Of a stretch of 64,000 bases of DNA, positions 3,505-29,494 are shown one piece after another. Below the pieces are notes generated by a model, which saw only the letters and a list, made by a program, of their open reading frames with translations, ran no database searches and was not told where the DNA came from. How positions within the stretch are numbered: the stretch's first letter is position 1; each line of letters starts with the position of its first letter. The translations under genes were made by a program, and so were the position numbers. Source of the DNA: Pseudaminobacter soli (ex Zhang et al. 2022) (GTDB lineage: Bacteria > Pseudomonadota > Alphaproteobacteria > Rhizobiales > Rhizobiaceae); NCBI RefSeq assembly GCF_014595955.1, contig NZ_JABVCF010000004.1:186001-250000 (forward strand), given 5' to 3'.

Positions 3505-3577
3505 TTTTGAGCCGTTTTTCGAAATCGGTGGACTTTCTGTCAAGAATATCTTTACAATGCCACAAATTTCCTTGACA
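3505..3577 (+). promoter_or_regulatory. Late promoter/operator P1, upstream of portal
   Basis: TTTTGAGCCGTT at 3505-3516 is followed by the palindrome TGTCAAG-AATAT-CTTTACA at 3538-3556, with one mismatch between the arms. An extra half-site CTTGACA lies at 3571-3577. TTTACAAT (3551-3558) could serve as the -10 box, with TGGACT (3529-3534) as a weak -35 box. The block is shared with P2 and P3. Confidence 0.55.
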
Positions 3578-3590
3578 GCGTCGCGGTTTT

Positions 3591-5390
3591 ATGAGTGCGC
3601 ACCCACTAGACAATGATCCCGGCCTCGAAGCCGGCACGCTGAGCCGGCTGCGGACGCACCGCAACCCGACCACGCTCGTTACCTATCCGGTGTGGGCTCA
3701 CCCGGAGGTCCACTACTGGGCCGAGACGTGGCAGATGATTCGCGACTGCTGCCTCGGCGAGCAGGAGGTCAAGGACAAGCAGGACCTCTACCTCCCGCCG
3801 CTCGACGAGATGACCAACAAGGAATATCTCGACTATCTGGAGCGCGCCGTCTTCTTCAACATGACCGGCCGCACGGTCTCCGCCCTCACCGGCATCGTTT
3901 TCCAGCGCCGCGCCAAGGTTAGCGGCCTCGACAAGAAGCGCGAGGCCGGCTTCAAGATTCCGTCGCGCGACAATCTCACCTTCGATTCCTTCCTCAAGAA
4001 GGTCTGCCGCGAACTGATCTCGATGGGCCGCTACGGCGTCCTCGTCGACATGGATCAGAAGCCGGGCGTGGCCGGCGTGACCGCCTTCCCGTACTTCACC
4101 GGCTACAAGGCCGAGGACATCCTTGACTGGGTGATCACCAAGATCGACGGCAAGCTCGTGCCGACCGAGGTCGTGCTGCGCGAGATGGCCGAGAAGCCGC
4201 GTGAGTTCGGCAAGGCGCGCGAGGCCCAGACCATCGTGCGCCGGCTGACCCTCGAATGGTCCGAGGAGCGCGGCAACTGGGTGTACAGTCAGTACGTCTA
4301 TGAGGTCGACAACATCCACACCGATCTCAACACGGTACTTCCCGAAAAGATCACGCCGACCCGCAACGGCGCACCCTTCAATCGCATTCCGTTCCGATTC
4401 TTTGGCGCACTCGAAAACACCTGCGAGGTCGATCGCAGCCCGCTTTCCGATATCGCCGCCCTGAACGTTTCCCACTACCGTTCGTACGCCCAGCTTGAGC
4501 ATTCCCGGCACTACACGGCGATGCCTGTCTGGTATGCGCAGGTGCCGGCCGGCCAGTCCGAGCGCACCTACCGCGTCGGGTCCGGCACCGTGTGGGAGTG
4601 CGCGCCCGGCGAGAAGCCCGGCCTGCTCGAAATGAACGGCCACGGCCTCAACGGCCTGATTGCCGCCTGTGAGCAGAAGGAAGACCAGATTTCCGCACTC
4701 GGTGGTCGCCTTATGTCGGGCAAGACCCGTGCCGTCTCCGAGAGTGACAACAGCCTGCGCCTCAAGGAAGGCAACGAGCGCTCGATCCTCCTCAACATCG
4801 TGTTCTGCGTCAACGAAGGCATGAGCGATCTCCTGAAGCTCTGGGCGCACTGGTCCGGTCAGGACAAGATCGACGACATCGAAGTTGAACTGAACACCGA
4901 GTTCCTGACCGACCAGCTTGGCGCGCGCGAACTTCGTGCTGTGTACGCCATGTATGTCGACGGCGTCGTTCCGGTCACCGTCCTTCATCACTATCTCCAG
5001 AAGGCCGAGGTTGTGCCAGACTGGATGGAGGTCGACCAGTTCAAGGCGCTCCTCGACGACGAGTCCGAGTTCAAGAACCAGCCGGACGTGATCGCCAAGA
5101 TGAAGGGTTTCGCGACCGCCAAGGATCGCGTCGCCAAGAATCAGACGAACCGCCAGATGCGCCTCACCGAGAAGCAGGTCGAGGCCAGCATCGCCCAGAT
5201 GGAGGAGGACGCTCGGTCGACCAAGACCTACGAGGACTTGGACGCCGAGAAGAACGAGATCGCGTGGGAGCAGCTTGCGATCTCGCAGCAGCAGGCCGAC
5301 CAGCAGGTCGAGATCGCCAAGGAGAACGCCAAGGCGAAGGCCCAGCAGGCAGCACAACGTCCCGCAGCACCAAAGAAGCCGGCCGGATGA
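3591..5390 (+). CDS. Portal protein (DUF4055 family)
   Basis: This 599-residue protein should form the dodecameric ring at the capsid vertex through which DNA enters and leaves. The family match is DUF4055, a portal family of tailed phages. Visible marks are the N-terminal HPEVHYWAETWQMIRDC region, the wing and stem region up to about residue 500, and a C-terminal Gln/Lys-rich coiled coil (about 515-590) that usually lies in the clip or crown. The start lacks a good ribosome-binding site, but no better ATG lies near. It is the first structural gene here; the large terminase normally found just upstream is not in the window. The stop overlaps the next ATG. Confidence 0.85.
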   Translation: MSAHPLDNDPGLEAGTLSRLRTHRNPTTLVTYPVWAHPEVHYWAETWQMIRDCCLGEQEVKDKQDLYLPPLDEMTNKEYLDYLERAVFFNMTGRTVSALTGIVFQRRAKVSGLDKKREAGFKIPSRDNLTFDSFLKKVCRELISMGRYGVLVDMDQKPGVAGVTAFPYFTGYKAEDILDWVITKIDGKLVPTEVVLREMAEKPREFGKAREAQTIVRRLTLEWSEERGNWVYSQYVYEVDNIHTDLNTVLPEKITPTRNGAPFNRIPFRFFGALENTCEVDRSPLSDIAALNVSHYRSYAQLEHSRHYTAMPVWYAQVPAGQSERTYRVGSGTVWECAPGEKPGLLEMNGHGLNGLIAACEQKEDQISALGGRLMSGKTRAVSESDNSLRLKEGNERSILLNIVFCVNEGMSDLLKLWAHWSGQDKIDDIEVELNTEFLTDQLGARELRAVYAMYVDGVVPVTVLHHYLQKAEVVPDWMEVDQFKALLDDESEFKNQPDVIAKMKGFATAKDRVAKNQTNRQMRLTEKQVEASIAQMEEDARSTKTYEDLDAEKNEIAWEQLAISQQQADQQVEIAKENAKAKAQQAAQRPAAPKKPAG

Positions 5391-5506
5391 TGCGCCGCCA
5401 GATCATAGTAGCGGCCTTCGTCGCCTACATCGCGGTCTCTGACCTGTTCGGCAGTCTTTCTGCGTGGATCGAAAGCATCTGGAACAAGGACAAGAAGACT
5501 CGATGA
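5387..5506 (+). CDS. Small single-span membrane protein (39 aa)
   Basis: ATGATG at 5387 overlaps the portal stop, and the stop at 5504-5506 overlaps the next ATG. One hydrophobic stretch (about residues 5-20, QIIVAAFVAYIAVSDLF) sits between basic ends (MMRRQ and WNKDKKTR). No family is recognised. Tight coupling to the portal gene is the main evidence that it is translated. Confidence 0.45.
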   Translation: MMRRQIIVAAFVAYIAVSDLFGSLSAWIESIWNKDKKTR

Positions 5507-5679
5507 GTCGGAATAACAGACTCCCACGGAACCCACTGATCATTGATCCGGATGATTGTGATCCACTATTCGACGACATACTGGACGATGAACAGGAACT
5601 TCGCGACGATCGCGGCGCATTCGATGTCCTCCCGACCGGGGCAAAGCGCAGAAAACCGATCATCCATGACGATTTTTGA
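5503..5679 (+). CDS. Small acidic hypothetical protein (58 aa)
   Basis: Starts on an ATGA overlap. It has a strongly acidic centre (DPDDCDPLFDDILDDEQE) and a basic C-terminal patch (GAKRRKP). Size and charge fit a head accessory or regulatory peptide, but nothing specific is seen. Its last codons run into promoter P2, whose GAGCCG block spans the stop codon. Confidence 0.45.
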   Translation: MSRNNRLPRNPLIIDPDDCDPLFDDILDDEQELRDDRGAFDVLPTGAKRRKPIIHDDF

Positions 5680-5727
5680 GCCGTTGTCAAGAAAAACTTG
5701 ACGAATACGTCGAGAAAATTGTAACAT
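5674..5727 (+). promoter_or_regulatory. Late promoter/operator P2, upstream of the scaffold and capsid genes
   Basis: TTTTGAGCCGTT (5674-5685) runs directly into the palindrome TGTCAAG-AAAAA-CTTGACG (5685-5703). The right arm supplies a -35 box TTGACG (5698-5703). TAACAT (5722-5727) is a candidate -10 box at 18-bp spacing. Confidence 0.65.
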
Positions 5728-5800
5728 TCGAAATCATCGGAGGACGGTGTCCTCGCGATCTTTTCCCGACACAACCCAATGAAAGCGAGATCGGTGATCT

Positions 5801-6574
5801 ATGCCTGAACTGTTTTTTGATACGCTCGACGCACTTCCGGAGGAACTGCGAGAGGGTGCAACGACCACCGAAGATGGTCGTGTGAAGATCAACGTTGTCG
5901 AAGCGACGAAGCTCAAGGAGTTCCGCGACAACAACATCAAGGTCGTGAAGGAGCGCGACGACCTCGCAGCCCTTCTCGGTAAGGCCAAGGACATCATCGG
6001 CAACGATGACTTCGAGGCTGCGGCCAAGGACATCGGCGACCTGCGCGGCATTGCCCAGCGCGTCAAGGATGGCCAGTTGGTTGAGAACAAGGGCCTCGAC
6101 GAGGCCATTCAGGAACGCACGAAGACCATGCGCGAAGGGCTGGAAGCCCAGATTCGGCAGCACGCTACCGAGAAGGACGCATGGAAGACGAAGTTCGAGC
6201 AGGCCGATGGACGACGCCGGCAGGGTGTTGTGGATCGAGCCATCGCGTCGCTGGCCGTCGACGAGACCATCGGGATGCACCCGACTGCGCTCGCCGACAT
6301 TCAGGTTCGCGCTCGCAGCGTCTTCGAGGTCGATGACAATGACGGACTGACGCCGAAGAGGAACGGCGAGGTCCTGTACGGTGGCGACGGCGCGACGCCG
6401 ATGTCGATCAAGGAGTGGGTGAACGTCCTGCGCGACGAGGCTCCGCACTTCTTCAAGGGATCGAGCGGTGGCGGATCAGGCGGCGATGGTAACGGGTTCC
6501 GTGGCAAGTCGGCAAGCGACATCGCCAAGATGGACCCGATGACCAAGCTGCGTCTGGCAAACGGCGAGCTTTAA
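5801..6574 (+). CDS. Scaffolding-type coiled-coil head protein (candidate)
   Basis: A 257-residue, highly charged, largely helical protein placed directly before the major capsid gene, where scaffold genes lie in most tailed phages. Residues about 30-150 form a coiled coil (KVVKERDDLAALLGKAK, ERTKTMREGLEAQIRQ). A Gly/Ser linker near residue 225 is followed by a short conserved-looking tail, DIAKMDPMTKLRLANGEL, typical of the capsid-binding end of such proteins. No protease motif is visible. The ribosome-binding site is weak. Its role in capsid assembly is inferred from composition and position. Confidence 0.65.
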   Translation: MPELFFDTLDALPEELREGATTTEDGRVKINVVEATKLKEFRDNNIKVVKERDDLAALLGKAKDIIGNDDFEAAAKDIGDLRGIAQRVKDGQLVENKGLDEAIQERTKTMREGLEAQIRQHATEKDAWKTKFEQADGRRRQGVVDRAIASLAVDETIGMHPTALADIQVRARSVFEVDDNDGLTPKRNGEVLYGGDGATPMSIKEWVNVLRDEAPHFFKGSSGGGSGGDGNGFRGKSASDIAKMDPMTKLRLANGEL

Positions 6575-6586
6575 TTTTCATAGGCT

Positions 6587-6611
6587 GGATGTCCAGAATT
6601 ACTGGACATCC
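6587..6611. promoter_or_regulatory. Perfect palindrome GGATGTCCAG-N5-CTGGACATCC
   Basis: Two perfect 10-base arms flank AATTA in the 192-base leader between the scaffold candidate and the capsid gene. It is the best example of the TGTCCAG-N5-CTGGACA family (others at 10408, 14185 and 40926). It could be an operator, or a hairpin acting in the transcript; there is no T-run, so it is not a standard terminator. Confidence 0.6.
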
Positions 6612-6766
6612 GCCCGCAGGTTTCAAGCCCAGAGCACCACGGGGTGGAGCGCGGGCGGTCACTGCACCGCAACAGCGGAGCTTTGGCCAAACCCGCTCCG
6701 GAGACGGACTGACCGGAGCACTCAAACCACTCAGTCCTGAACCAAACAGCAACCGAGGAGATATCC

Positions 6767-7693
6767 ATGGCTGTTACCCTGTTGGAGGCATCCAAGCTGG
6801 TTTCTGGCGACGTGAAGCGTCAGGCCATCATCGAGATGTTCCCGCGCAACTCTGACCTTCTGGCGGCTATGCCGTTCATCAACGTCAGCGGCGGCGCATA
6901 CGTCTACAACCGTGAAGGCAAGCTGCCGGGCGTGGCTTTCCGTGGCTTCAATGAGGGCTACACGGAGTCGACCGGCGTCATCAATCCGGAGAGCGAAATC
7001 CTTCGCATCGCCGGTGGTGAACTCGACGTTGACACGGCCATCATCAAGACCCGTGGCTCGGGCGTCCGCTCCTCGCAGGAGGCGATGAAGGTCAAGGCGA
7101 AGGCGCTCTACCTCGCCGACAAGCTCATCAACGGCGACTCCGAGGCTGATCCTCGCGAGTTCGACGGCCTGCGCAAGCGTATTGCCGGCGCTCAGCTTTT
7201 CCAGCCGACGATGGCTCAGAACGCCTCTGGCGCACTCTCGCTGGAAGTGCTCGACGCCGCGATCGACGCGGTCGACAGCCCGACCCATCTCGTCATGTCC
7301 AAGGCGCTTCGTCGTAAGCTGACCAAGGCTGCGCGCGAGAACAAGGGCGGCGAGATCACCTACACGACCGACTCCTTCGGCCGTCAGGTGACGCAGTACA
7401 ACGACCTGCCGATCCTCATGCCCGATGTCAACGACCTCGGCCAGCGGATCATCGACTTCAACGAAACCGGCGTTGACGCCGCGCCAAGCACGACCTCGCT
7501 CTACGTCGTGTCGCTCGGCGAGGACAAGATCGTCGGCCTCCAGAACGGCATCATGGAAGTCCGTGATCTGGGCGAACTCCAGTCGAAGCCGTGCTACCGC
7601 ACGCGAGTCGAGTGGCTGGTCGGCCTCGCGGTTCTCCACGGTCGTGCGGCAGCCCGCATCGCCTCCATCACCAACGCGGACTTCACCGGCTAA
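6767..7693 (+). CDS. Major capsid protein (HK97-like fold expected)
   Basis: A 308-residue protein in the major capsid position (portal, scaffold, capsid, cement). It starts MAVTLLEASKLVSGDVKRQ, typical of short, unprocessed capsid proteins with a helical N-arm. The middle contains RSSQEAMKVKAKALYLADKL, resembling the spine helix, and the end PCYRTRVEWLVGLAVLHGRAAARI is typical of the P-domain strand and C-terminal helix. A strong GAGGAG site lies 7 bases before the ATG. No prohead protease gene is seen, so assembly probably does not need cleavage. Confidence 0.85.
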   Translation: MAVTLLEASKLVSGDVKRQAIIEMFPRNSDLLAAMPFINVSGGAYVYNREGKLPGVAFRGFNEGYTESTGVINPESEILRIAGGELDVDTAIIKTRGSGVRSSQEAMKVKAKALYLADKLINGDSEADPREFDGLRKRIAGAQLFQPTMAQNASGALSLEVLDAAIDAVDSPTHLVMSKALRRKLTKAARENKGGEITYTTDSFGRQVTQYNDLPILMPDVNDLGQRIIDFNETGVDAAPSTTSLYVVSLGEDKIVGLQNGIMEVRDLGELQSKPCYRTRVEWLVGLAVLHGRAAARIASITNADFTG

Positions 7694-7697
7694 TAAC

Positions 7698-7715
7698 GGA
7701 GCGCTTCGGCGCTCC
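7698..7715 (+). other. UUCG-tetraloop hairpin right after the capsid gene
   Basis: GGAGCGC-TTCG-GCGCTCC, a perfect 7-bp stem closed by the very stable UUCG loop, begins 5 bases after the capsid stop codon and has no following T-run. Such a hairpin would stabilise the 3' end of the capsid message or weaken read-through. Confidence 0.6.
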
Positions 7716-9716: not shown

Positions 9717-10458
9717 AGCTGACAAGGAAGCGAGACGCCCCAAGCCGTTGGAGGCGAGAAACCTTCGGCAGAAGGAACTCATTCAGCAGCTTAACGCATT
9801 CCCGGTCGTCATTGCCTTGGGGCCGGCCGGCTCGGGAAAGACTTACGTAGGGGCGCGTCACGCCCTCGATCGACTGCTCCGCAAGACGATCGACCGGATC
9901 ATCATCGCGAGACCTTCTGTGTCGGCTGCGCGGCACAGAATGGGCTTCCTCCCCGGCGACGGGGACAAGAAGATGAAGCCTTGGCTTGTCCCGATCGTCG
10001 ACGCCTTCAAGGAGGGAACCTCCGGAGCCGAGGTCGACAGGTTGACAGCCACGAAGCAGATCGAGGTCCTACCGTTCGAGCATATGCGTGGACGCACCGT
10101 CAAAGACGGCGTCTTCCTCCTCGATGAGGCGCAGAACTGTACGCTGGCCGATCTGGAAATGTTCCTGACCAGAATCGGCGACAATGCGCAGGCGATCATC
10201 TGCGGCGATCCCGACCAGTCCGACATCGGTCGCGACAGCGGCTTGCGAACCATCGCCGAGATGGTTTCCCGACACGGTCTGAACGCAGGCATCACTTTTT
10301 TCCGAGAGGAAGATGTGGTGCGCTCCGCGACGGCCAAGGAGTGGGTCATGGCGTTCGCGGCAGAGCGTTCTCACCTGAGCCCCGGTCCTGATTTTTCGGG
10401 CGATTGGCGTCCAGCGTTTCTGGACAAGGGAGTGGAAAATGGTCGACCTTGTGGTTGA
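9646..10458 (+). CDS. phoH: PhoH-like P-loop ATPase
   Basis: A 270-residue ATPase of the PhoH family. Walker A GPAGSGKTYV (about residue 65), a Walker B-like GVFLLDEAQN (about 162), and the late motifs ICGDPDQSDIG and GITFFREEDVVRS are all visible. An N-terminal Lys/Arg-rich segment (SKREQRKADKEARRPKP) precedes the ATPase core. PhoH proteins are widespread in phages; RNA-related helicase or nuclease-linked functions have been proposed, without a settled role. Here it lies between head genes and neck genes, apart from any visible replication genes. The start at 9646 is one of several possible. Confidence 0.85.
   Translation: MELSDVFEAESPPTSKPSKREQRKADKEARRPKPLEARNLRQKELIQQLNAFPVVIALGPAGSGKTYVGARHALDRLLRKTIDRIIIARPSVSAARHRMGFLPGDGDKKMKPWLVPIVDAFKEGTSGAEVDRLTATKQIEVLPFEHMRGRTVKDGVFLLDEAQNCTLADLEMFLTRIGDNAQAIICGDPDQSDIGRDSGLRTIAEMVSRHGLNAGITFFREEDVVRSATAKEWVMAFAAERSHLSPGPDFSGDWRPAFLDKGVENGRPCG
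10408..10426. promoter_or_regulatory. Palindrome CGTCCAG-N5-CTGGACA inside phoH 3' end
   Basis: CGTCCAG-CGTTT-CTGGACA with the same 7-5-7 geometry as the sites at 6590 and 14185. It lies 13 bases before the start codon of the next gene, within the last codons of phoH. Confidence 0.5.
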
Positions 10459-12225: not shown

Positions 12226-12279
12226 TTTTGAGCCGTTTGTCAAGAATTTCTTGACGCCTTAGCCTGCTTTATCTATCAT
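12226..12279 (+). promoter_or_regulatory. Late promoter/operator P3, upstream of tail tube
   Basis: TTTTGAGCCGTT (12226-12237), palindrome TGTCAAG-AATTT-CTTGACG (12238-12256), -35 TTGACG (12251-12256), 17-bp spacer, -10 TATCAT (12274-12279). This is the best-formed member of the family and starts about 64 bases before the tube gene ATG. Confidence 0.75.
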
Positions 12280-14181: not shown

Positions 14182-14206
14182 GGTTGTCCAGATTTTCTGG
14201 ACATCC
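14182..14206. promoter_or_regulatory. Palindrome GGTTGTCCAG-N5-CTGGACATCC
   Basis: Arms of 10 bases with one mismatch around ATTTT, starting 3 bases after the tail tube stop codon. It shares the long arm GGATGTCCAG with the site at 6587. There is no T-run. Confidence 0.6.
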
Positions 14207-14255
14207 AGTACATAAAGGAGCCCGACATACTCCTGCGCTTTTGCGCGCGCGAAAC

Positions 14256-14286
14256 GGGGCCGGACTTTGTCGGGAGGTCCGGCCCC
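14256..14286 (+). other. Strong hairpin before the tail chaperone gene
   Basis: GGGGCCGGAC / GTCCGGCCCC, a perfect 10-bp stem with an 11-base loop, followed by a C/A-rich stretch and then the chaperone gene. Without a T-run it is more likely an attenuating or mRNA-protecting structure than a full terminator; it would lower chaperone expression relative to the tube protein. Confidence 0.55.
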
Positions 14287-14315
14287 ACCCCATCCCGAAC
14301 CCCGACAGGTGAAAT

Positions 14316-14750: not shown

Positions 14751-15169
14751 ACTGGCTGGCTCGGAGTTTCCACCAGCCGGAAGCCAGTAAAAAGGCTAAG
14801 AACCGGAAGTGGATCAACGAGCTACGCCAGAAACAAGGCAAGCCCCCACTTCCCTCTAATGAGCCGGAACAGGTGGATGAGCAGGAGTTTCTTCCTGCTC
14901 ATCTGCACCCGATTTGGACCGCATTTACGGTCCTGTCCCGAAGTCGAAACGTCAACCAGATCGGCCCGCAGCCGATCCAGATTGGCGAGGTCCGCCACTA
15001 CTGCGACCTCGACGGCGTGATCGACGAAGAAGACCGCCGCGAACTCCTCTTCCACGTCATGGAACTCGATGCCGAGTGGATGACCCGGAAGTACGCCGAG
15101 ATCGAGACGGAGCGGGACAAACTCAAAAAGCAAGCTGAGAAGAACGGTACGAGGGGCCGTCGTCGATGA
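14316..15169 (+). CDS. Tail assembly chaperone, -1 frameshift product (GT-like)
   Basis: The product expected after a -1 slip at 14738-14744. Reading then continues CTT CTA AAC TGG in the -1 frame without a stop to 15169, adding 141 codons to the first 143. The added part contains NWLARSFHQPEAS, a basic linker, and the acidic, helical end with EEDRRELLFHVMELDAEWM. The part after about 14,873 has no independent ribosome-binding site that would explain it as a separate gene. The stop overlaps the tape measure ATG by 4 bases. This matches lambda gpGT in layout. Confidence 0.75.
14738..14788 (+). promoter_or_regulatory. Programmed -1 frameshift site with downstream stem
   Basis: Slippery heptamer A AAA AAC (14738-14744), a 6-base spacer, then a stem ACTGGCT (14751-14757) / AGCCAGT (14782-14788) extended inside by GGCT (14758-14761) / AGCC (14775-14778), with GGA bulged out. 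Heptamer, phase, spacer length and stem all fit a stimulated -1 frameshift. Confidence 0.8.
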
Positions 15170-18100
15170 GCGACAACTACAACATCAAGATTGGCGTCGA
15201 CTCGCGCTCCGGCGCGCGCGGTGTCAAGCAATTCTCGTCGGCCCTCGGCGAAGCACTCCGTACGCTGCGCGAGTTCGACAAGCGCTCGCGCAGCGCCTTC
15301 GACGGTCTGAAGAAGCTCGCCTCCGTCAACATCCCAGACATCGCCAAGAAGACGAAAGCCGTCCAGAAGGCGATCGAGACGCTGAATCGCGTCCAGATCA
15401 ATCGCCGGATGATCAACGATCTCCAGCGCCTCCAGAACGCGCTCGCCGGCTTCCGCTTCAACGCCAAGGCGATCTCGAAGGTGCCTGAGGCCCTGCGCGG
15501 ACTGTCGAACCTGAAGATCGACACGTCCTTCGTCTCCACTCTCAACCAGATCAAGGCAGCACTCAAGGGCTTCCGTGGCCCTCCGAAGGCGCTTGCGCAG
15601 TGGGCTGGCGCGTTCACTCCGTTCGCCAAGGTCAAGATCGATTCGACGCTCGCGCCGCGTCTGACCGCACTCAAGGCGGCGCTCAAGGGCTTCCCCGGCC
15701 TTCCCAAGGGGCTTGTAAACCTCCCGACATTCCTCCGTGGCATTTCCCGCAACCGAATCCCGCCTTCGGTGGCGCAGGGCATCGCGTCCCTGAAGACAGC
15801 ACTCGCCGGCTTTGCCGGGCCGTCCGCTGCCGCAACCCGTAATCTGTCCGCCCTCGTCGCCGCTTTGGCTCGGGTCAGCCCCGGTCATCTCGCGCAGGTG
15901 GCGGCGGCGCTCGCGCGCCTCAACGGCCTGAACATCAATGTCCGTGGCCTCGGCTCGATGAACAACGCCGCGCAGCGCGGCGCGGGCATCTGGACCAACA
16001 TGGGCAATTCGATCCGGAACACGACCAACGCGTTCCGTGGTCTCAACAATCAAATCTCGCTGACCCATCACGCGTCGACGCTGCTCGCGACCGCGCTCGG
16101 ATCAGTGTCGCTCGGCACCTTCGTCAACAGCGTCTACGAGGCCGGTAGCGCCCTCATCAACCTGAAGCGCACGATGGGTGCGATCGCCGGGACGCCGACC
16201 GAGGTCAACGACCATCTTTCCTTCCTGAAGGACCTCACCAACGAGCTTCCCGTCTCGCTGGACGCTGTCGCTCGCTCGTACGGTAAGTTTGCTGTCGCCG
16301 CGCGCCTGTCCGGTACGTCGGTCGCGGATACCCAGAAGGTCTACAAGGGCTTTGCGACCGCGCTGTCGGCCATGGGTGTCTCCGCCGACAACCAGAAGTA
16401 CGCCTTCCTCGCCTTGGAGCAGATGTTCTCCAAGGGAACCATCCAGATGGAAGAACTCCGCGTTCAGTTGGGTGACCACATCCCCGGCGTGGTGCCGATG
16501 CTGGCCGAGGCTCTGGATGTCTCGACCTCGAAGCTCCTGAAGATGATCGAGGCCGGTGAAGTTGGTTCGGACGCACTGATCAAGCTCGCCGAAGTCATGC
16601 AGAGCCGGTTCGGTCCGGCCGTTGCGGCGGCAATGAACACGTCCGCAGCCCAGATCACATCGCTCCAGAACGCGTGGACCGAGTTCAAGCGTATCCTCTT
16701 CGACAGCGGCTTCAACGCTGGCCTCGGCGCGATGGCGCGTCAGTTCGCGGAAATTCTCCGATCGGATGACTTCAAGAAGTTCGCGGCCGACCTCGGCCGG
16801 GCGATGGGCGAGGCATTCAAGCTGATCGGCGCGCTCGGCAAGGTCCTTGCCGACAACCGCGACAAGGTCATCACGTTCGCCAAGGCGCTCGCAGGCGTCA
16901 TGGTCGCCTATTCGATCGTCGGTGTTCTCCGTCTGTTGGTGGCCCCGCTGTCGGTGGTCGGCGGACTGTTCTCGTTTGCCGCGACCGCCGTGCGCCTGTT
17001 TGGCGGCGCACTCGCCCTGCTCGCGGGTGGTAAGGCGGTTGCCGCCGTTGCCAACATCGCCAAGTCGATCGGCGTCCTGACCGGTAAGGTCATGGCAGCG
17101 GTCGCCGCCTTTGGCTTGCTGGCGATCCTGTCCAACGAAATCCTTGGCGACGGTAAGTTGGCCGCAAGCTTCGGCAACATGCTCGACGCCTTTGGCAAGC
17201 GCGTCGGCAAGATGATCGGCGAGATGACGGGCGGCGTCACGGAGATGTTCGATCTCTCCGGCGTCGACGGCTTCAGCGAGTACATGAAGGAGGCGGACGA
17301 ATACGCCAAGAAGATTCAGGACGCCAACCAGATCAACGCGGAAAGCATCGAGAAGAATGCCGAGCGTTACGCCAAGCTCGAAGAGCAGAAGAAGCGCGCA
17401 CTTACCACCGAACAGCAGAAGCTGTGGGACGAAATCAACGCGATCGGTAAGGCGAACGAGGAATATCAGAAGCAGTTGCTGCTCATCGACGAGATCGCGA
17501 AGAAGCGTGGTTTCGACCCGAAGAGTGCCGAGGTTGATCGGTGGCGCAAGATGCTCGCCGAGAACACGCTGGACGACCGCAACCCGGCCGGCGCGATGGC
17601 GCGCGACTACCGGCAGGAACTGGCCATGATGAAGGCCAAGACCGCCGAGCAGAAGGCCTTGGCGTCGGCGCAGGAGGATTACAACGAACTCCTGAAGAAG
17701 GGCCAGGATGTCGGCAAGGAGGGGCTGGAGGCCCTTCGCCAGTACCATGAGGGTATCGCCCGCATGAACGGTGAGATCGGCAACGGCGTCGAGCGCTGGG
17801 CCGCGTCCGTTGGCGACTTCAACGATCAGGTTCAGGAAGCAATCAAGGACGGCATCAGCAGCCTTTCCGACGAGATCACCAACTTCGTCACCGGAGCCGA
17901 GGCGGATTTCGCCAGCCTCGGCCGCTCGATCCTGAAGACCTTCGTCAAGATCAGTCTCGACTCGATGCTGAAGGACATCGCTGGCTGGATGGGTATGGAC
18001 GGCGAGAAGAAGGGCGCGTCCATGGCCGAGAAGGCGATGGAAAAGCTCGCCGGCATTGGTGAGAACATCACCACGGCGATGACCAACGTCTACACCAACG

Positions 18101-19917
18101 GTCTGACCATAAATGGCGAGCCGGTGACCGGCGCTGGTGGTGGCCCGAATGCCGGCATGTCGCTTGCCGAACAGTATGCGTCCTATGGCGCGGGCAAGGC
18201 CCAGTCGAATGCCGCGAAGCAGGCGGGCATCACTCGTGCGCCGCTGCCTGACATTCCGGGCACCAATGTCGCGCCGGCCGGACCGTCCACAAACGATCGT
18301 TTCGCGACCGAGCCGGGCTTCGTCAAGCCGATGAAGACGCTCAACGACGGCGTGCGGGAATTGGATCGCAGCCTCAAGTCCATGCCTGATGGATGGGGAC
18401 CGGGCGGCATCATCGGCGCGAACACCACGGCGAAGACCAACCGTGTCGGCTTTGTTGACCCCGAGCGCTTCGCGCCGGGCGTGAACCCCAACGCAAACCT
18501 CGGTCTGCGTGGCGCGATCGATCCTATCACCACGTCGGCACTGCCGGCTGGTGGTGGCGTGTCGCCAACCATCAACGGCTTCACCTTCTCGAAGTTCTCG
18601 GAGGCGTCGTACCAGCAGATTTCCAACCAACTGATGGACCGGTTGAAGCAGGACTTCAACCTGACCGACAATCAGGCTGGTGGCATCGTCGCGAACCTCG
18701 CGCACGAGTCCGTAGGCTTCCGCAAGTTGCAGGAAATGAAGCCGCTGGTTCCGGGCTCGCGTGGTGGTTATGGCATCGCGCAGTGGACCGGTCCGCGTCG
18801 TCGCGAGTATGAGGCTTTCGCAGCGCAGGGCGGCTGGACGACCGATTCTCCCGAGGCTCAGTACCAGTTCCTCAAGCACGAGTTGATGGGCAAGGAGTCC
18901 CGTTCTCTGTCGCACCTGCGTCAGCAGTCCGGCTTGGGCGAGTCTGTCGTGTCGTTTCAGGACAAGTTCGAGCGGCCGGGCATCCCGCACACGGCAAGCC
19001 GTATGACGCACGCCGACCGGATCATGAACGGCTATCAGCCCGGCACAGGGTTGCAGCCGGGAGTTGACCCGACCGCGACGGCCGGCATCGATCAGATGAA
19101 GGCGAAGGTGACTGAGGTTGGACAGGCTGCGCAGCAGGCCACGCCGGCTATGGACCAGATGAAGTCCAAGCTGAGCGAGACCGGCACGTCGGCGCAGACC
19201 GGTGCGTCCCAGACGCAGATGGCCAACCAGATGAAGACCCAGTCCGAGTTGCAGATGGGCTTGACCGCTCAGCAGACCGGTATTCAGGTCCAGTCGGCGG
19301 GCACCATGGCGGCGTCGGCCGGTCCGCAGTTCCAGCAGGCAGGTACAGCGATCCAGCAGGCCGGTACGCAGGCGCAGATGGGCGCGCAGCAGGCACAGTC
19401 CGCAACGCCGGGCCTCGGCCAGTTCGGTCAGGGCATCTCGCAGCTTCTCGGCCCGCTGTCGTCGGTCATCCCCGGCCTCGGCCAGTTTGGCAGCATGATC
19501 TTGCAGCTTCTCCAGCAGTTGATGACTGGTGGTATGGGCGGCATGGGTGCTGGCCTCTTCTCCGAGGGTGGATACTCCGACTCGCCGGTCACTCGCGCCC
19601 GCGTCAGCGCGGCTCCGTTCATGGGTGCTCCGCATTACTCCGAGGGCACGCCGAACACGAGTGGTGGCATGCCAGCGATCCTGCACGACAATGAGGCGGT
19701 GATCCCTCTGACCCGTGGCCGCAAGGTCCCCGTCGAGATGAACGAAGGCGATTCTTCGCGAGCCGGTCGTCAAGATTATCTTGACAGAAGTGGTCCACCG
19801 AATCTAACGTTCCACCTGCACGGTGTGAAGGACGCCGACAGCTTCAAGAGATCGAAGAGCCAGATCGGCAACGCCATGACGACGGTGCAGCAGCGCTCGC
19901 GTATCCGCGACGGATAG
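15166..19917 (+). CDS. Tape measure protein with lysozyme-like domain
   Basis: A 1,583-residue protein that sets tail length. Residues about 40-270 hold roughly five degenerate 45-residue repeats with the pattern LKAALKGFxGxPKAL. Residues about 325-480 match the conserved tape measure domain (LINLKRTMGAIAG to LAEVMQSRFGPA). Hydrophobic segments at about 565-665 may enter the membrane on infection. Residues about 1,140-1,290 (LTDNQAGGIVANLAHES, GIAQWTGPRR) match the phage tail lysozyme family, which should open the peptidoglycan for DNA entry. The rest is a Gln/Met/Ala/Gly-rich region ending in ILHDNEAVIPLTRGRKVPV, as in many siphoviruses. Promoter P4 lies inside the 3' end. Confidence 0.9.
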   Translation: MSDNYNIKIGVDSRSGARGVKQFSSALGEALRTLREFDKRSRSAFDGLKKLASVNIPDIAKKTKAVQKAIETLNRVQINRRMINDLQRLQNALAGFRFNAKAISKVPEALRGLSNLKIDTSFVSTLNQIKAALKGFRGPPKALAQWAGAFTPFAKVKIDSTLAPRLTALKAALKGFPGLPKGLVNLPTFLRGISRNRIPPSVAQGIASLKTALAGFAGPSAAATRNLSALVAALARVSPGHLAQVAAALARLNGLNINVRGLGSMNNAAQRGAGIWTNMGNSIRNTTNAFRGLNNQISLTHHASTLLATALGSVSLGTFVNSVYEAGSALINLKRTMGAIAGTPTEVNDHLSFLKDLTNELPVSLDAVARSYGKFAVAARLSGTSVADTQKVYKGFATALSAMGVSADNQKYAFLALEQMFSKGTIQMEELRVQLGDHIPGVVPMLAEALDVSTSKLLKMIEAGEVGSDALIKLAEVMQSRFGPAVAAAMNTSAAQITSLQNAWTEFKRILFDSGFNAGLGAMARQFAEILRSDDFKKFAADLGRAMGEAFKLIGALGKVLADNRDKVITFAKALAGVMVAYSIVGVLRLLVAPLSVVGGLFSFAATAVRLFGGALALLAGGKAVAAVANIAKSIGVLTGKVMAAVAAFGLLAILSNEILGDGKLAASFGNMLDAFGKRVGKMIGEMTGGVTEMFDLSGVDGFSEYMKEADEYAKKIQDANQINAESIEKNAERYAKLEEQKKRALTTEQQKLWDEINAIGKANEEYQKQLLLIDEIAKKRGFDPKSAEVDRWRKMLAENTLDDRNPAGAMARDYRQELAMMKAKTAEQKALASAQEDYNELLKKGQDVGKEGLEALRQYHEGIARMNGEIGNGVERWAASVGDFNDQVQEAIKDGISSLSDEITNFVTGAEADFASLGRSILKTFVKISLDSMLKDIAGWMGMDGEKKGASMAEKAMEKLAGIGENITTAMTNVYTNGLTINGEPVTGAGGGPNAGMSLAEQYASYGAGKAQSNAAKQAGITRAPLPDIPGTNVAPAGPSTNDRFATEPGFVKPMKTLNDGVRELDRSLKSMPDGWGPGGIIGANTTAKTNRVGFVDPERFAPGVNPNANLGLRGAIDPITTSALPAGGGVSPTINGFTFSKFSEASYQQISNQLMDRLKQDFNLTDNQAGGIVANLAHESVGFRKLQEMKPLVPGSRGGYGIAQWTGPRRREYEAFAAQGGWTTDSPEAQYQFLKHELMGKESRSLSHLRQQSGLGESVVSFQDKFERPGIPHTASRMTHADRIMNGYQPGTGLQPGVDPTATAGIDQMKAKVTEVGQAAQQATPAMDQMKSKLSETGTSAQTGASQTQMANQMKTQSELQMGLTAQQTGIQVQSAGTMAASAGPQFQQAGTAIQQAGTQAQMGAQQAQSATPGLGQFGQGISQLLGPLSSVIPGLGQFGSMILQLLQQLMTGGMGGMGAGLFSEGGYSDSPVTRARVSAAPFMGAPHYSEGTPNTSGGMPAILHDNEAVIPLTRGRKVPVEMNEGDSSRAGRQDYLDRSGPPNLTFHLHGVKDADSFKRSKSQIGNAMTTVQQRSRIRDG
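19760..19810 (+). promoter_or_regulatory. Late promoter/operator P4, inside tape measure 3' end
   Basis: GAGCCG (19760-19765), palindrome CGTCAAG-ATTAT-CTTGACA (19768-19786), -35 TTGACA (19781-19786), 18-bp spacer, weak -10 TAACGT (19805-19810). It lies in coding sequence, 111 bases before the tail-tip operon, with the same GAGCCG-to-GTCAAG spacing as P3. Confidence 0.55.
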
Positions 19918-25600: not shown

Positions 25601-26385
25601 CTGATGTCACCGACACACAAACCCAGATTACGTTGAAGCCGACCTATGAGTGGAATGAGCCCGACGTGATCTACACGTGGGACTCTATCCCTGACGACGA
25701 ATGGCCGAACGACTCCAACATGGTGATCATCGGAGGCGAGGTCATCCTGTTCAAGAATGTCGTCGAACATGATGACGGATCGGCGACGATCTCGCACCTG
25801 ATCCGAGGATATCGCGGGACGACCAATGCAGCCTACACGCATAGGCCGGGCGAGAATTTCGTGCTGGTTACTGCGGACGCGATGCGCATCGCTGATGAGC
25901 CGGTCGCCAAGGTTGGGGAAGTTCGCAATTACTCGGTCCTGTCGTCGGCTCAGATGACGATCGAGACGCCGGCAAACCTGAACGCCGCGTCTCGTCGACC
26001 GTGGCCGGTTGGTGGCGTAAAGCGCACCAACAACGTAGTCGACGACACGATCACAGTGACGTGGAAGCGTTCGACCCGCTTCGGCGGCACGCTGATGAAC
26101 AGCACAGGCGCAGTCCCTCTCAATGAACAGGAAGAAGAATACGAAGTCTTCCTTCTGAAGGCTCCGTTCGACCCGAACACCTTCAACCCTGAAAATGCAG
26201 CCATGTATTGGCACGCATCCGGACCCATCTCGACTCAGTCGTACACCTTTACAAAGGCTGCGTTGGCGGCTGCGGGACTTACGCACAAGTCCGATGTGCA
26301 CGTCGTAATTTATCAGAACTCTCAGGCAGTCGGACGCGGCTTCGCACGCGGACTGTCACTCCGGTACTCGATGTTTGGAATTTGA
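22606..26385 (+). CDS. Tail hub / host-specificity protein (gp15/J-like)
   Basis: A 1,259-residue protein that begins directly after the peptidase stop. The N-terminus (GQLLGSAFAGKMLMFGASVG, then SYGRTIPKCYGTIKVTGNL) and the region around residues 670-760 (DIVEDVCLSVNIPKSRLDVE) match the hub family with the phage-tail_3 domain. Residues about 240-620 replace the usual TIM-barrel-like part by a beta-rich stretch of repeated short strands with GNLVFTTN, GVIHVMDAHG and RWIVPNSRTVYSWD, which looks like a beta-propeller. The C-terminal 300 residues contain fibronectin-like segments. It should form the tail tip cone and carry the fibres. Confidence 0.8.
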   Translation: MQLGVLFGGQLLGSAFAGKMLMFGASVGASLLMRRKQEPQGKLNEVRVSSSSYGRTIPKCYGTIKVTGNLFWATDFEEKKRYIGKKQSSKGASKGKAVEVYDYYANFAMALCEGPVGQVLRVWADNNLIYDRMNPLNPDIVGQGFTNRGQRDQKAQGGKKGGGESHGRFVFQFYNGSENQKPNGFMVSKQGAQNVPAFRGLAYLWFMKFKLGDFGNRIPTITAEISVRPEVTPHLRIFQNMEPKAKTSFRTIYNRIGSGRVVADPFYDPVRKMFYHEAIDSTGRYVIRGFNVDKVKETVRFSYQKPDDKPWLPQEQLSMYGDAITRNRFNYENIWQYCGVAGNGNLVFTTNLGPYPNHKAMIFVNPRSKAIEGVYGGTISTLFPPYGGGARFPVYHVSSQLTSHENVRANSTFIADQEGVIHVMDAHGTGFNVALPAGFNAPNSVQKVSAGVPGTNYGIIIREKGLYTQRGRVSTLLPRMMTVGSKSDDATPDLPEDQKEYPVQEPARFLFELPGWTSKRVDSVLFAGYCAAADAIAVLATTTGNANLEKGLYAALVHADQGAAAVDGTENIIYLKKITDNQFHYPEGNTHMPDYLSGPVYRWIVPNSRTVYSWDFVEGRGDVYSYGTKMPFYGDDITYQYYWSEYDAVLYFSEQYEEGRWILGQFQKYNQTGISLADIVEDVCLSVNIPKSRLDVEPLRSQGVRGYMIESTLQASQVLEELSSVYMFDVVESDNILKFKWRDTPSVVTIPQSKLGVVETDFGGENEYYQITRTQEIELPERCVVQYMNSKEDYEAGSEHAKRPLRPLPVMNSRESLDLTLNMALEPKEAKTMAQRILYAAWAERGLGEFALPRDYLWLDPSDVITIHLDNGEALSERITDIEIGANLQMEIKTVSQIEAVYSTVADVERRGGIIPSENTVAPNCVPGIFNLPYLFDGDANYEDGTFGYYWAALPYEAGFREGILVARNRDSSEVEGTAYVEALWGSITGMVPPPPVSTDVTDTQTQITLKPTYEWNEPDVIYTWDSIPDDEWPNDSNMVIIGGEVILFKNVVEHDDGSATISHLIRGYRGTTNAAYTHRPGENFVLVTADAMRIADEPVAKVGEVRNYSVLSSAQMTIETPANLNAASRRPWPVGGVKRTNNVVDDTITVTWKRSTRFGGTLMNSTGAVPLNEQEEEYEVFLLKAPFDPNTFNPENAAMYWHASGPISTQSYTFTKAALAAAGLTHKSDVHVVIYQNSQAVGRGFARGLSLRYSMFGI

Positions 26386-26387
26386 TC

Positions 26388-28016
26388 ATGGCGCTATCTC
26401 CTATCCTCGCGATCCCACTTTTGTCGGCCAACCAGTCGGCCAAGGAAGCTACCATCAATGACGCTATCAGCTTCCTTGAGCAGGCGAGTAACAGGGCGCG
26501 CGATCTCGACTTCGCGGCGGGCGACGTTGTGCTGCCGGTTCTGGACCTCCAGCGCTACTTCATGTTCCGGTGCAAGAACGTCACCGGTCTCCGCGCGCTG
26601 ACGATCCCGGCGACATCGAGGGTTTTCGTCGTCGACAATTCGACCGGGACCAACATGGTCAACGTCGTGCGCGGCGCGGCGACGCTACCGCTACCGACCG
26701 GAACGACGGCCGTGTTCTACGTCGACGGAAATTACCTCATCTACCTCTACTTCTCAGACAATGGCGGCACGATTCCTTTCACGAGCCTGTCGGACACGCC
26801 GGTCAACTACTCCGGCATGAAGGGCCGCTTCATGCGGGTCAAAGACACTGAGGACGGGGTCGAGTTCGCGCCGGCCGGCGCGTCGATCTCGAATTTCACT
26901 GACCTTTCCGACACGCCCGTCGACTATACCGGAAGCGCCGGCATGGCGGTTCGCGTCAACGCGGCGGGGACAGCCCTGACGTTCACCAATGAGAGCGGAA
27001 GTCTCCGCGACCTCAACGACGTGCCGGATTCTTACGCAGGGGCAGCACACCAATACCTCCGGATCAAGGCGGATGAGACCGGGATCGAATTTGTGCCGTC
27101 CGGCGATCTGATCTCCATGTTCAGAGACCTCACCGACACGCCAGTGACCTATGAAGGTTATGGTGGCTTTGTCGTGCGCGTGCGCGAAGATGAATCCGGT
27201 CTGGAGTTCGTGGCGGGCGGTGGAGGCATCACCGAGTTCACGGAACTGACAGACGCTCCGAACAGCTTCACCGGCTTTGAGGGGGCGTACCTGCGGGTCA
27301 AGAATGACGGAACTGGGATCGAGTTTGTCTACTCCGGCGACTCTCTGGAAGACTTCACCGATCTCGCGGACACGCCGGACACTTTGTCTGGGGCTGGCGG
27401 TATGGTCGTTCGGGTCAAGGAGGATGAATCCGGTCTGGAGTTTTACGGTCTGCCGACTGGAGGCGGAGGCGGCGCGGGGACCTTCCTCGAATTGGCCGAC
27501 ACGCCTGACAATTTCACAGACGCTGGTGGAAAGTCGGTCCGCGTCAAGGCGGATGCAACCGGTCTGGAGTTCTTTGACCAGCCGGCCAGCGGCGCGAAAA
27601 CCTTCCTCGGACTGACCGACACGCCGGCAGACTACAGCGGTCAGGCTGGCAAGACGGTCCGGGTCAACAGCGCAGCCGATGGTCTCGAATTTTATAATCC
27701 ATCGGGTCTGACGGTAACCACCAAGACGGCCAACTACACCCTCGCGCTGCCCGACGCCTCTGGATACGTCCGCATGAACGTGGTCGCGACAAACACCCTG
27801 ACCGTGCCGCCGAACTCGGTAGTAGCATTTCCAATCGGTACGGCGATCCCGATCCGCCAGATCGGAGCAGGCCAGACCACGGTCGTGGCTGGGACCGGCG
27901 TCGTCGTTAATACGTCCGAGACCCTGAAGCTGCGCAAGCAGCATTCCGGCGCGACCCTCATCAAGGTCGCTACTGATGTGTGGGACTTGGTTGGTGATGT
28001 GGAGTTGCTGCCGTGA
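26388..28016 (+). CDS. Tail fibre with eight short tandem repeats
   Basis: The ATG at 26388 is 2 bases after the hub stop; the longer frame is a shadow. The 542-residue protein has an N-terminal attachment part (SAKEATINDAISFLEQA, about residues 17-33), then eight tandem repeats of about 38-43 residues with the core DLxDTPxxYxGxxG and RVxxDExGLEF, and a C-terminal beta domain. This repeat is typical of trimeric phage fibre shafts. It starts the fibre gene group. Its stop overlaps the GTG start of the next gene. Confidence 0.75.
   Translation: MALSPILAIPLLSANQSAKEATINDAISFLEQASNRARDLDFAAGDVVLPVLDLQRYFMFRCKNVTGLRALTIPATSRVFVVDNSTGTNMVNVVRGAATLPLPTGTTAVFYVDGNYLIYLYFSDNGGTIPFTSLSDTPVNYSGMKGRFMRVKDTEDGVEFAPAGASISNFTDLSDTPVDYTGSAGMAVRVNAAGTALTFTNESGSLRDLNDVPDSYAGAAHQYLRIKADETGIEFVPSGDLISMFRDLTDTPVTYEGYGGFVVRVREDESGLEFVAGGGGITEFTELTDAPNSFTGFEGAYLRVKNDGTGIEFVYSGDSLEDFTDLADTPDTLSGAGGMVVRVKEDESGLEFYGLPTGGGGGAGTFLELADTPDNFTDAGGKSVRVKADATGLEFFDQPASGAKTFLGLTDTPADYSGQAGKTVRVNSAADGLEFYNPSGLTVTTKTANYTLALPDASGYVRMNVVATNTLTVPPNSVVAFPIGTAIPIRQIGAGQTTVVAGTGVVVNTSETLKLRKQHSGATLIKVATDVWDLVGDVELLP
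26779..27700 (+). repeat. Eight coding tandem repeats of the fibre shaft
   Basis: Eight in-frame repeats of roughly 115-130 bases encoding the DTPxxYxGxxG...GLEF unit. DNA copies are diverged, so recombination between them is likely to be old. Repeat borders are given to within about 10 bases. Confidence 0.7.
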
Positions 28017-29395
28017 TCCCTTATCCGATTCTGATGGGAGCCAGCGCGGCGGCAATCCTAGCCGCTGTCGCCGGCAAGGAAGCACCACCTGCTGGCGGGC
28101 CGCTGGGCATCTACGACCAGACCAGCGCAGTTTCTGACGTTGATGCTTCGACCATTGCCGTAGCGCGGCCGGAGCGCGTGGTGGCCGGTACGTTGATGGT
28201 GGCCTTTGTCGCCACTGGAGCGAGTATTTCCTCCGTCACCCCGCCATCCGGTTGGGAGGTAGTTGTCAACCGGAAGGACGGGCGCTCCTACGGCGGGTGC
28301 TTTTATCGATACGCCACTGGTTCTGAGCCGAACTACTACACTTTTACATGTACCGGAGCGGCACAAATTAATGCCGTAGTTTTTGCCATCGGCGGCGCTG
28401 CGCTGACTTCGCCGATCAACGCGTTCGGAACTAATGGGGCTCCAGCCAATAATCCTACTCACGTCGTCCCGAGCCTTACTACCACTGTTGACGGCTGTCT
28501 CGTTCTCAGCGCAGCGATCGCAGGCTGGTCCGGCGTAACCTACACCGATCCGGGCGGCGTCACGCGAATATTCTACCAGCGCCCTACTGGACCATCCGGT
28601 GGGCAGTCCAACGCTCTCGTGATATGCAAAGAGGAAAAGACGACAGCAGGCGCGACTGGTACGCGGACGTACACCCCTAGCGAAGCCACCGAGTTTACGG
28701 CCTTTGGCATTGCAATTGCCCCCGGTAATTCTCCCATCGGCCCGGCGAAGTCGTTTCTCACGCCAGTCGTCGGCGCGATTTCAACGCTCAATCAGAATAC
28801 GACCGGGACTACTGGCACCATCAATAAACCTGCTGGTGCTCAGGAAGGCGACCTTCTCGTGGCTCACATTAGCCTCGGGGTTTCCGCGACCGCTCTGGCT
28901 ACGCCGTCCGGCTGGACATTGATAGATCAAGGCATCTACGGTAGCGCGCGGTCGTTCCTTCTGTACAAGGTAGTGACGGCCTCGGAGCCGTCCAGCTATA
29001 CATTCACGTGGACTGGCACGACGCGGTGCTGCGCGGCCATCATGCAGGTGCTGAACGCCAACCCAAATAGGCCGATCCTACAGCACTCGCGCTATGGCGG
29101 ACCAACGAACTCTAACCCTTTCATAGTCGGCGTTGGCGCGATCAATGGTGACAACAGACTGGTCCTCGCGATGGTTGATGGAGGTTGGGGAGGGCAGTCC
29201 ATCACCACCGGGCCGTCTGGGTACACGAAGCTGTACGACTTCGCGACGGCAACTGCAGGTGGTGACGGCGTGACGGCAGCCGCCTTTTCGCGTGTGTATA
29301 ACAGCCCCGGTTTCGTCAACTCCCTGTCGATAGTACCTGTCACAGGACTCAACTACGCCGCCTTCAGTTTGGTCATTAACCCGAGAACGGAGTAG
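28013..29395 (+). CDS. Tail-associated protein with duplicated beta domain
   Basis: A 460-residue protein with a GTG start overlapping the fibre stop (GTGA). After a short hydrophobic start (ILMGASAAAILAAVAG) come two copies of one domain of about 200 residues. The pair SGWEVV / YRYATGSEPNYYTFT in copy 1 matches SGWTLI / YKVVTASEPSSYTFT in copy 2. This jelly-roll-like module is common in phage and bacterial surface proteins and is likely a receptor-binding or decoration part. Its receptor is unknown. Confidence 0.65.
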   Translation: MIPYPILMGASAAAILAAVAGKEAPPAGGPLGIYDQTSAVSDVDASTIAVARPERVVAGTLMVAFVATGASISSVTPPSGWEVVVNRKDGRSYGGCFYRYATGSEPNYYTFTCTGAAQINAVVFAIGGAALTSPINAFGTNGAPANNPTHVVPSLTTTVDGCLVLSAAIAGWSGVTYTDPGGVTRIFYQRPTGPSGGQSNALVICKEEKTTAGATGTRTYTPSEATEFTAFGIAIAPGNSPIGPAKSFLTPVVGAISTLNQNTTGTTGTINKPAGAQEGDLLVAHISLGVSATALATPSGWTLIDQGIYGSARSFLLYKVVTASEPSSYTFTWTGTTRCCAAIMQVLNANPNRPILQHSRYGGPTNSNPFIVGVGAINGDNRLVLAMVDGGWGGQSITTGPSGYTKLYDFATATAGGDGVTAAAFSRVYNSPGFVNSLSIVPVTGLNYAAFSLVINPRTE

Positions 29396-29452
29396 CCAGC
29401 ACTTTATCGGGGTGAGCCACTGAGGATTTTTCGGGACTTTTCAGGCGATATG

Positions 29453-29494
29453 TGTCAAGATTTGCTTGACATATATCGACTGATTTTCTTTACA
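29453..29494 (+). promoter_or_regulatory. Late promoter/operator P5, upstream of lysis genes
   Basis: Palindrome TGTCAAG-ATTTG-CTTGACA (29453-29471), extended on both sides to 12-base arms with one mismatch. -35 TTGACA (29466-29471), 17-bp spacer, -10 TTTACA (29489-29494). The start codon follows 13 bases later, so the leader would be very short. The GAGCCG block of P1-P4 is absent. Confidence 0.7.

Follow-up and report, generated by a model that had tools for sequence, protein, structure and literature searches.

What reads a palindrome that recurs from module to module of a prophage, and does it switch the genes behind it on or off? The question is raised by a 64,000-bp stretch of Pseudaminobacter soli (contig NZ_JABVCF010000004.1, positions 186,001 to 250,000; hereafter the window), whose left portion belongs to a large prophage. 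A sequence-only reading had listed five copies of TGTCAAG-N5-CTTGACA, at 3538, 5685, 12238, 19768 and 29453, and assigned them to a late regulon in which one phage-specific factor controls modular promoters. All five were found, that at 29453 perfect and the other four one letter off, and they precede the portal (start codon at 3591), 5801, tail-tube (12343), DUF2460 protein (19921) and amidase (29508) genes with centre-to-start-codon distances of 44, 107, 96, 144 and 46 bp, respectively. The -35/-10 pairs claimed at the last four, with spacers of 17 or 18 bp, and the GAGCCG upstream of the first four were also confirmed, and the site at 19768 does lie within the tape-measure gene (15166-19917). 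The list of five is real, yet it is a fraction of a larger set, with 12 sites in the window and 48 in the prophage. These palindromes are probably operators of a CI/C2-type repressor of the phage, most likely the protein encoded at 35332-35994, acting across the whole prophage. The 12 sites are listed below, with hexamers joined by their spacer length and paired distances given for the prophage and then for its relative, Mesorhizobium phage Cp1R7A-A1.

1601-1619, no strand assigned: operator-like palindrome with one mismatch, within predicted genes
3538-3556, plus strand: putative operator before the portal gene, overlapping the spacer and -10 of TGGACT-18-TACAAT (9/12 matches)
5685-5703, plus strand: putative operator on the -35 before gene 5801-6574 (TTGACG-18-TAACAT), kept at the Cp1R7A-A1 orthologue (107/106 bp)
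6590-6608, no strand assigned: TGTCCAG-N5-CTGGACA, an interior site ahead of the major capsid gene, without a clear promoter (168/168 bp in Cp1R7A-A1)
10408-10426, no strand assigned: operator-like site near a gene end, one mismatch, not conserved in Cp1R7A-A1
12238-12256, plus strand: putative operator on the tail-tube -35 (TTGACG-17-TATCAT; 96/103 bp in the two phages)
14185-14203, no strand assigned: interior site TGTCCAG-N5-CTGGACA after the tail-tube gene and before the chaperone gene (122/129 bp in Cp1R7A-A1)
19768-19786, plus strand: putative operator ahead of 19921, within the last part of the tape-measure gene (TTGACA-18-TAACGT, the -10 with three mismatches)
29453-29471, plus strand: perfect putative operator before the amidase (lysis) gene (TTGACA-17-TTTACA)
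34666-34684, no strand assigned: weak, doubtful match inside a gene, two mismatches
40756-40774, minus strand: operator-like site, two mismatches, where the leftward operon behind the repressor gene begins
40926-40944, no strand assigned: putative operator 12 bp before attR, one mismatch

Many copies of this one site are spread across the phage, and it is nearly absent from the host. With up to three mismatches, TGTCAAG-N5-CTTGACA occurs at 14 places in the 64 kb, against a mean of 1.7 and a maximum of 5 in 100 shuffles. All further counts use the relaxed motif TGTCMAG-N5-CTKGACA with the mismatch limit stated. At up to two mismatches, the 12 sites in the window are joined by 36 in the part of the prophage to its left, giving 48 (dinucleotide-shuffle mean 0.9, 10 shuffles), and Cp1R7A-A1 has 41 (mean 1.0, 10 shuffles). 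At up to one mismatch, the 6.1-Mb genome holds 32 places, 31 of which fall within the prophage (C34:100493-226944; C34 coordinates are contig numbering, and window position 40956 is C34:226956) and one elsewhere; a similar density in host DNA was thus not observed, and the idea of a phage-specific factor acting on modular promoters stands. Cp1R7A-A1 holds 33 places at the same limit, while none was found in any of 10 other large phages scanned for the motif in this form. Six control palindromes with shuffled arms gave 0-10 matches in a 190-kb stretch of the contig and 0-5 in Cp1R7A-A1. The sites are mostly intergenic, 38 of 41 in Cp1R7A-A1 (deposited annotation) although 11% of that genome is intergenic, and 38 of 48 in the prophage by our own gene calls, which leave 15% non-coding. 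An exact-pattern scan of viral contigs returned one match per contig among the matches listed, which was judged to be chance and was not used.

The prophage extends over C34:98240-226956 (about 129 kb) and is bounded by a perfect 46-bp repeat, C34:98194-98239 and window 40957-41002, with an integrase gene (C34:98358-99629) just inside attL and host DNA from window position 41003 onward.

1-40956, no strand assigned: right part of the prophage, recognised by the att repeat, the integrase at attL and the portal identity to Cp1R7A-A1
40957-41002, no strand assigned: attR, 46 bp identical to C34:98194-98239, the 3′ end of tRNA-Arg(TCG)

IMG/VR entry IMGVR_UViG_2920292642_000002 (128,860 bp) corresponds to approximately the same stretch. 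The portal protein shows 79% identity with that of Cp1R7A-A1 (accession no. MT188704.1), and 121 reciprocal best hits, with a median identity of 61%, were obtained among 213 gene calls. The prophage is therefore a Cp1R7A-A1-like phage with a common gene set, here integrated with att repeats. Our gene caller recovered 203 of the 218 annotated stops of Cp1R7A-A1, and miscalled the start of the repressor gene (221602 for 221332). Searches of viral contigs with the repressor and portal for close relatives matched this prophage alone, and the same search in three other genomes of the genus gave weak helix-turn-helix (HTH) matches at most. Among 394 genomes of the family, 10 had portal matches, nine of them distant (24-28% identity); a search of genome contigs for close relatives gave one partial HTH match, and a scan for close relatives with the Mwe-JY26 protein found none. 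Close conservation is accordingly judged on a single relative, Cp1R7A-A1. The prophage also contains 26 tRNA genes at C34:140.1-148.5 kb, and a tRNA cluster is likewise present in Cp1R7A-A1.

The sites are kept in that relative, so the lack of conservation that would have spoken against the sequence-only reading did not appear either. Among the 121 orthologous pairs, 25 have a site within 250 bp upstream in both phages, 10 in the prophage alone, 6 in Cp1R7A-A1 alone and 80 in neither (p = 1e-12; one site can score for two neighbouring genes). The spacing to the gene is kept within a few bases at many pairs (45/45, 107/106, 168/168, 84/84) and is not kept at some (133/57, 144/21). In the Cp1R7A-A1 annotation, the site-sharing pairs include genes for a deoxynucleoside monophosphate kinase, a nicotinamide mononucleotide adenylyltransferase and a (p)ppGpp synthase/hydrolase, small early-region genes, and capsid and tail genes. 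In Cp1R7A-A1, a site at 67069 precedes the gene run with the DNA polymerase, and sites at 103056 and 103142 precede the holin gene. The set is thus phage-wide and not late, as it precedes early, nucleotide and nicotinamide adenine dinucleotide (NAD), lysis and structural genes, and there is therefore no late regulon in the sense of the sequence-only reading; the sites of either phage also precede small early genes, NAD/nucleotide genes and the start of the replication region.

The position of the palindrome relative to promoters was then considered. Sites were finally oriented by gene direction, orientation by -35 likeness alone having been dropped. Of the asymmetric intergenic sites, 39 have a single gene direction, and in 33 of these the arm resembling a -35 points toward the gene (p = 2e-5): sites with C in the left arm and T in the right occur 18 times on the plus and 3 times on the minus strand, and sites with A left and G right 3 and 15 times. 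Early genes carry the leader word GTCAACGC, for which 22 palindrome-linked cases were found (one in a gene, probably by chance). The gap from palindrome to GTCAACGC falls into classes of 6-10 bp (8 cases), 28-30 bp (10 cases) and 41-42 bp (4 cases); the palindrome thereby falls on the -10 in the first class, on the -35 in the second and just upstream in the third. Several late promoters of both phages share the frame GAGCCR-N14/15-(-35)-N17/18-(-10), to which the following elements of the window belong.

3509-3514, plus strand: GAGCCG, 14 bp before TGGACT, the portal -35
5678-5683, plus strand: GAGCCG, 14 bp before TTGACG
12230-12235, plus strand: GAGCCG, 15 bp before TTGACG
19760-19765, plus strand: GAGCCG, 15 bp before TTGACA

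Within this frame, the palindrome covers the -35 (TTGACG) at the scaffold-position gene and the tail-tube gene in both phages, and it covers the spacer and -10 at the portal gene (TGGACT-18-TACAAT) and at Cp1R7A-A1 55312 (TTGACT-18-TAACAT). The promoter frame is constant and the palindrome moves within it, in each case to a position that would block the promoter, as a repressor requires; the placement fits repression by occlusion better than late activation. GAGCCR is a second promoter element marking several late units. It stands 14-15 bp before a TTGAC-type -35 at 3509, 5678, 12230 and 19760 and at Cp1R7A-A1 125951, 118696 and 55312, and of the 89 palindromes of the two phages, 15 have GAGCC 0-2 bp ahead of them. 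It is perhaps the site of a late activator, for which the 98-aa protein encoded at C34:106905-107201 is a candidate. A further dyad, TTAACC-N12-GGTTAA (up to one mismatch), occurs 26 times in the prophage and 11 times in Cp1R7A-A1, clustered in the early zone (C34:166.4-180.8 kb and Cp1R7A-A1 5.1-14.1 kb) and often near a palindrome. These dyads look related to CtrA, whose sites in Cp1R7A-A1 and CbK-like phages have been published (accessible part of PMC9437464).

The likely binder of the palindromes is encoded near the right end of the prophage.

35332-35994, plus strand: CI/C2-type repressor, proposed palindrome binder (HTH_3, HTH_31, PHROG 4, Foldseek match to a 186 CI hybrid)

Its N-terminal Cro/C1-type HTH scored 45 bits with HTH_3 (cut-off 23) and 48.2 with HTH_31 (cut-off 27), and PHROG 4, 'transcriptional repressor', covers residues 19-214 (E = 1.4e-18). 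The best PDB match of the family profile was P22 C2, with LexA 3k2z also matched, and the Cp1R7A-A1 orthologue is 62-64% identical. A first structure model, with a predicted local distance difference test score (pLDDT) of 45, was not used. The model built from three sequences has a mean pLDDT of 63 (84-92 at residues 21-60, about 40-73 beyond residue 80), and Foldseek ranked a lambda-186 hybrid repressor and 186 CI first, followed by lambda CI, LexA and P22 C2, with low template modelling scores of 0.33-0.48, unrelated enzymes in the same list and a low-confidence C-domain. The Pfam search did not report Peptidase_S24 for the window protein, and reported it for three of nine family members; PHROG 4, the profile match and Foldseek each point to a predicted S24/LexA-like C-terminal domain. 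An alignment with L234, in which GDSM and KRL are retained, shows another residue in place of the catalytic Lys in all 10 relatives and in place of the Ser in nine, RpAliso being the one that keeps Ser; in the 35332 protein both are replaced. RecA-type self-cleavage is therefore unlikely, and induction would probably proceed via an antirepressor or another route. In six of seven phages, the 400 bp before the repressor gene hold no site.

Orthologues in other phages allow the operator and the repressor to be followed together. BLAST found relatives of the repressor in RcXuper, MD18, RpAliso, MAL1, DSS3P8, V10 and Mwe-JY26, and a weaker one in RXM. An annotated integrase adjoins or lies near the orthologue in RcXuper, RpAliso, MAL1, DSS3P8 and Mwe-JY26, and in MD18 an unannotated gene is found there; in RXM no integrase was seen near the orthologue within the stretch inspected. 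A profile search added remote orthologues in Lacusarx, EliS-L02 and CcrRogue, overturning the BLAST result that Lacusarx was without the regulator. TGTCA-N7-TGACA (up to one mismatch) occurs 52, 52 and 75 times in the roseophages RcXuper, MD18 and RpAliso (shuffle means 3.0-3.5) and 70 times in a fourth, DSS3P8 (computed expectation 7.5), and it was intergenic in 14 of 16 and 11 of 14 cases in the two annotated stretches checked. In a non-coding scan of the Microcystis phage Mwe-JY26, YGTCAG-N5-CTGACR was found 13 times (shuffle mean 1.45, largest 5), and in Lacusarx, whose recognition helix differs, AGTTA-N3-TAACT was found 14 times against 0.15. CcrRogue, a CbK-like Caulobacter phage, has 26 palindromes TGTCRTGANTCNTGACA with up to two mismatches (shuffle mean 0.15). 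The patterns in these last three phages were picked after seeing the data, which makes the shuffle contrasts flattering. This covariation of motif and repressor supports the 35332 protein as the binder, at the level of sequence comparison, without settling it.

Other candidate operators were dropped. TAGTGC-N5-GCACTA in Mwe-JY26 gave way to YGTCAG-N5-CTGACR, which was more dispersed in the non-coding scan. Of its 28 sites, 18 lie no more than 14 bp from a TTG-type -35 match, and for 17 of these the distance is 2 bp (background 7%); palindromes so placed inside the promoter spacer look like a second repressor system. TTAACC-N12-GGTTAA (prophage and Cp1R7A-A1), TGTTA-N4-TAACA (EliS-L02) and CGTTA-N4-TAACG (RXM) scored highly, but nearly all of their copies lie in one zone; the latter two dyads also look CtrA-related.

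Several observations weigh against operators of the 35332 protein. Outside one zone, neither EliS-L02 nor RXM has a clear dispersed set, CcrRogue has its 26 palindromes though the HTH of its orthologue is interrupted, and other proteins of DNA-binding type are likewise common to these phages. Ten of the 48 prophage sites and three of the 41 Cp1R7A-A1 sites lie inside genes, some by only a few bases, and in Cp1R7A-A1 a site with three mismatches does precede the repressor gene. Of the 62 sites that were oriented, only 16% show a good -10 at a spacer of 17, 8% each at spacers of 16 and 18, and 0-3% at any other; the -35 reading therefore explains only part of the sites, and most promoter assignments are predictions. 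The centre of the -35-type site is near -39, and activation at some promoters is possible, as lambda CI activates from a position close to -39. The number of sites, their restriction to the phage, their position, their conservation and the family of the repressor are established by the sequence; binding by the 35332 protein, and repression through that binding, we infer. If the repressor reading holds, a dimer on each site would keep RNA polymerase off many separate promoters in the lysogen, whether of early, nucleotide/NAD, lysis or structural genes, because the sites fall on a -35, on a -10 or in the DNA directly before them. Loss or inactivation of the repressor, probably not by RecA-type self-cleavage, would make the modules available, and timing after derepression may then be set by host CtrA at early promoters and by a further factor at GAGCCR before several late ones.

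A variant of the repressor reading concerns chiefly 6590 and 14185, which may act as roadblocks to elongation like the stoperators of L5; we regard this as tentative, being a possibility rather below even. Both are perfect, CTGGACA-armed palindromes (TGTCCAG-N5-CTGGACA) directly behind stop codons in the structural region, both have the same place in Cp1R7A-A1 and are followed by conserved leaders, and no convincing promoter was found at either. The palindrome is symmetric, unlike the asymmetric, one-directional L5 sites (as described in the accessible part of PMC9283540), and the leader after the site could hold an unrecognised promoter. These strongly conserved non-coding leaders span 6609-6766 before the major capsid gene and 14204-14315 before the chaperone gene, the latter with a long G+C-rich inverted repeat; an Rfam scan of window 1-41100 gave no family at threshold.

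It is unlikely that the palindromes are instead operators of another phage protein, either the 98-aa HTH protein (C34:106905-107201) or a 218-aa tyrosine-recombinase-like protein (C34:125186-125842). Homologues of each occur in Cp1R7A-A1 and in the four roseophages that were tested, and the SPbeta master repressor MrpR has a tyrosine-recombinase fold (accessible text of PMC10516654). The HTH matches of the 98-aa protein are below threshold, the 218-aa protein is an integrase-family member that is present in Lacusarx, which is without the TGTCA palindrome, and neither has the CI-like architecture of the 35332 protein.

Activation of modular late promoters by a phage factor through the palindrome is less probable still. 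The sites before portal, capsid, tail and lysis genes are real, and where an arm forms the -35 the centre is near a class II activator position. However, in both phages many sites precede early and metabolic genes, and the palindrome shifts against the core promoter in steps of 18-20 bp, at some promoters falling on the -10. In addition, the region upstream of Cp1R7AA1_019, as read in the genome rather than in the cloned fragment, holds one palindrome and a TTAAC-N-TTAACC site, and in a promoter fusion this promoter is reported to work in Caulobacter without phage proteins and to depend on CtrA (PMC9437464). RNA hairpins (terminators or stability elements) or chance can practically be rejected: each palindrome could fold into a stem of at most 7 pairs, but the arms mispair at position 5 in 54 of 89 sites, an excess over the 42.5 expected from independent arms, and shuffles yield about one site per phage.

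Three proteins near the sites or the border were noted besides. The tape-measure protein (15166-19917) has an internal tail lysozyme domain, a bacterial transglutaminase-like cysteine protease (Peptidase_C93, E = 2.8e-56) is encoded in the prophage near attR (39951-40583, minus strand), and a protein with a Hint_2 domain (E = 8e-44) is encoded on the host side (43257-44144, minus strand).

A wider scenario can be drawn, which we consider doubtful. A clade of 100-220-kb CbK-related alphaproteobacterial phages, some described as lytic, would share one lineage of non-cleavable 186-CI-like repressor with dozens of palindromic operators, whose letters and spacing changed with the recognition helix. 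Lysogens would be silenced unit by unit, with a roadblock in the structural operon, and repressor oligomers may link far-apart operators, condensing the silent prophage. If repression by the 35332 protein is true, it would explain how a very large prophage is silenced without one master promoter, provide an immunity system for a phage group so far discussed via host CtrA control, and offer natural repressor-operator pairs differing in helix and operator as a test bed for the evolution of immunity specificity.

Among known repressors, 186 CI, lambda CI and P22 C2 are the best structural or sequence matches, sharing the HTH_3 N-domain and S24/LexA-like C-domain. They act at one or a few operator regions, whereas dozens of sites are present here. 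The layout of sites resembles that of P1 C1, where 22 operators are dispersed over the genome and lytic genes are repressed unit by unit (PMC8546580, in the part accessible); the likeness considered is that of one repressor with operators over the whole phage, and P1 differs in its 17-bp asymmetric operator and plasmid prophage. SPbeta, like the present phage a large integrated prophage with a repeated promoter-region element, is controlled by the master repressor MrpR (YopR) on repeated SPBRE in promoter regions, with ten peaks, all in the prophage (PMC10516654, accessible text), and differs in the tyrosine-recombinase fold, a 15-bp motif and fewer sites. The L5-type repressor has more than 20 sites in promoters and short intergenic spaces genome-wide (PMC9283540, as far as accessible); it is monomeric and its sites are 13 bp and asymmetric, while those described here are palindromes and mostly promoter-proximal. 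CtrA control was described for Cp1R7A-A1 itself, partly at the same promoters, but CtrA is a host protein that binds TTAA-N7-TTAA, and the accessible part of PMC9437464 does not mention the palindrome. Within the accessible literature, including the parts seen of PMC10688885 (XRE factors in Caulobacter and CbK), PMC7643831 (MD18), PMC9127768 (EliS-L02) and PMC3556154 (CbK genomes), neither the palindrome nor dispersed operators were seen reported for this group of phages. Immunity through dispersed operators is already known from P1, SPbeta and L5, and the system of this prophage would be a variant of that kind.

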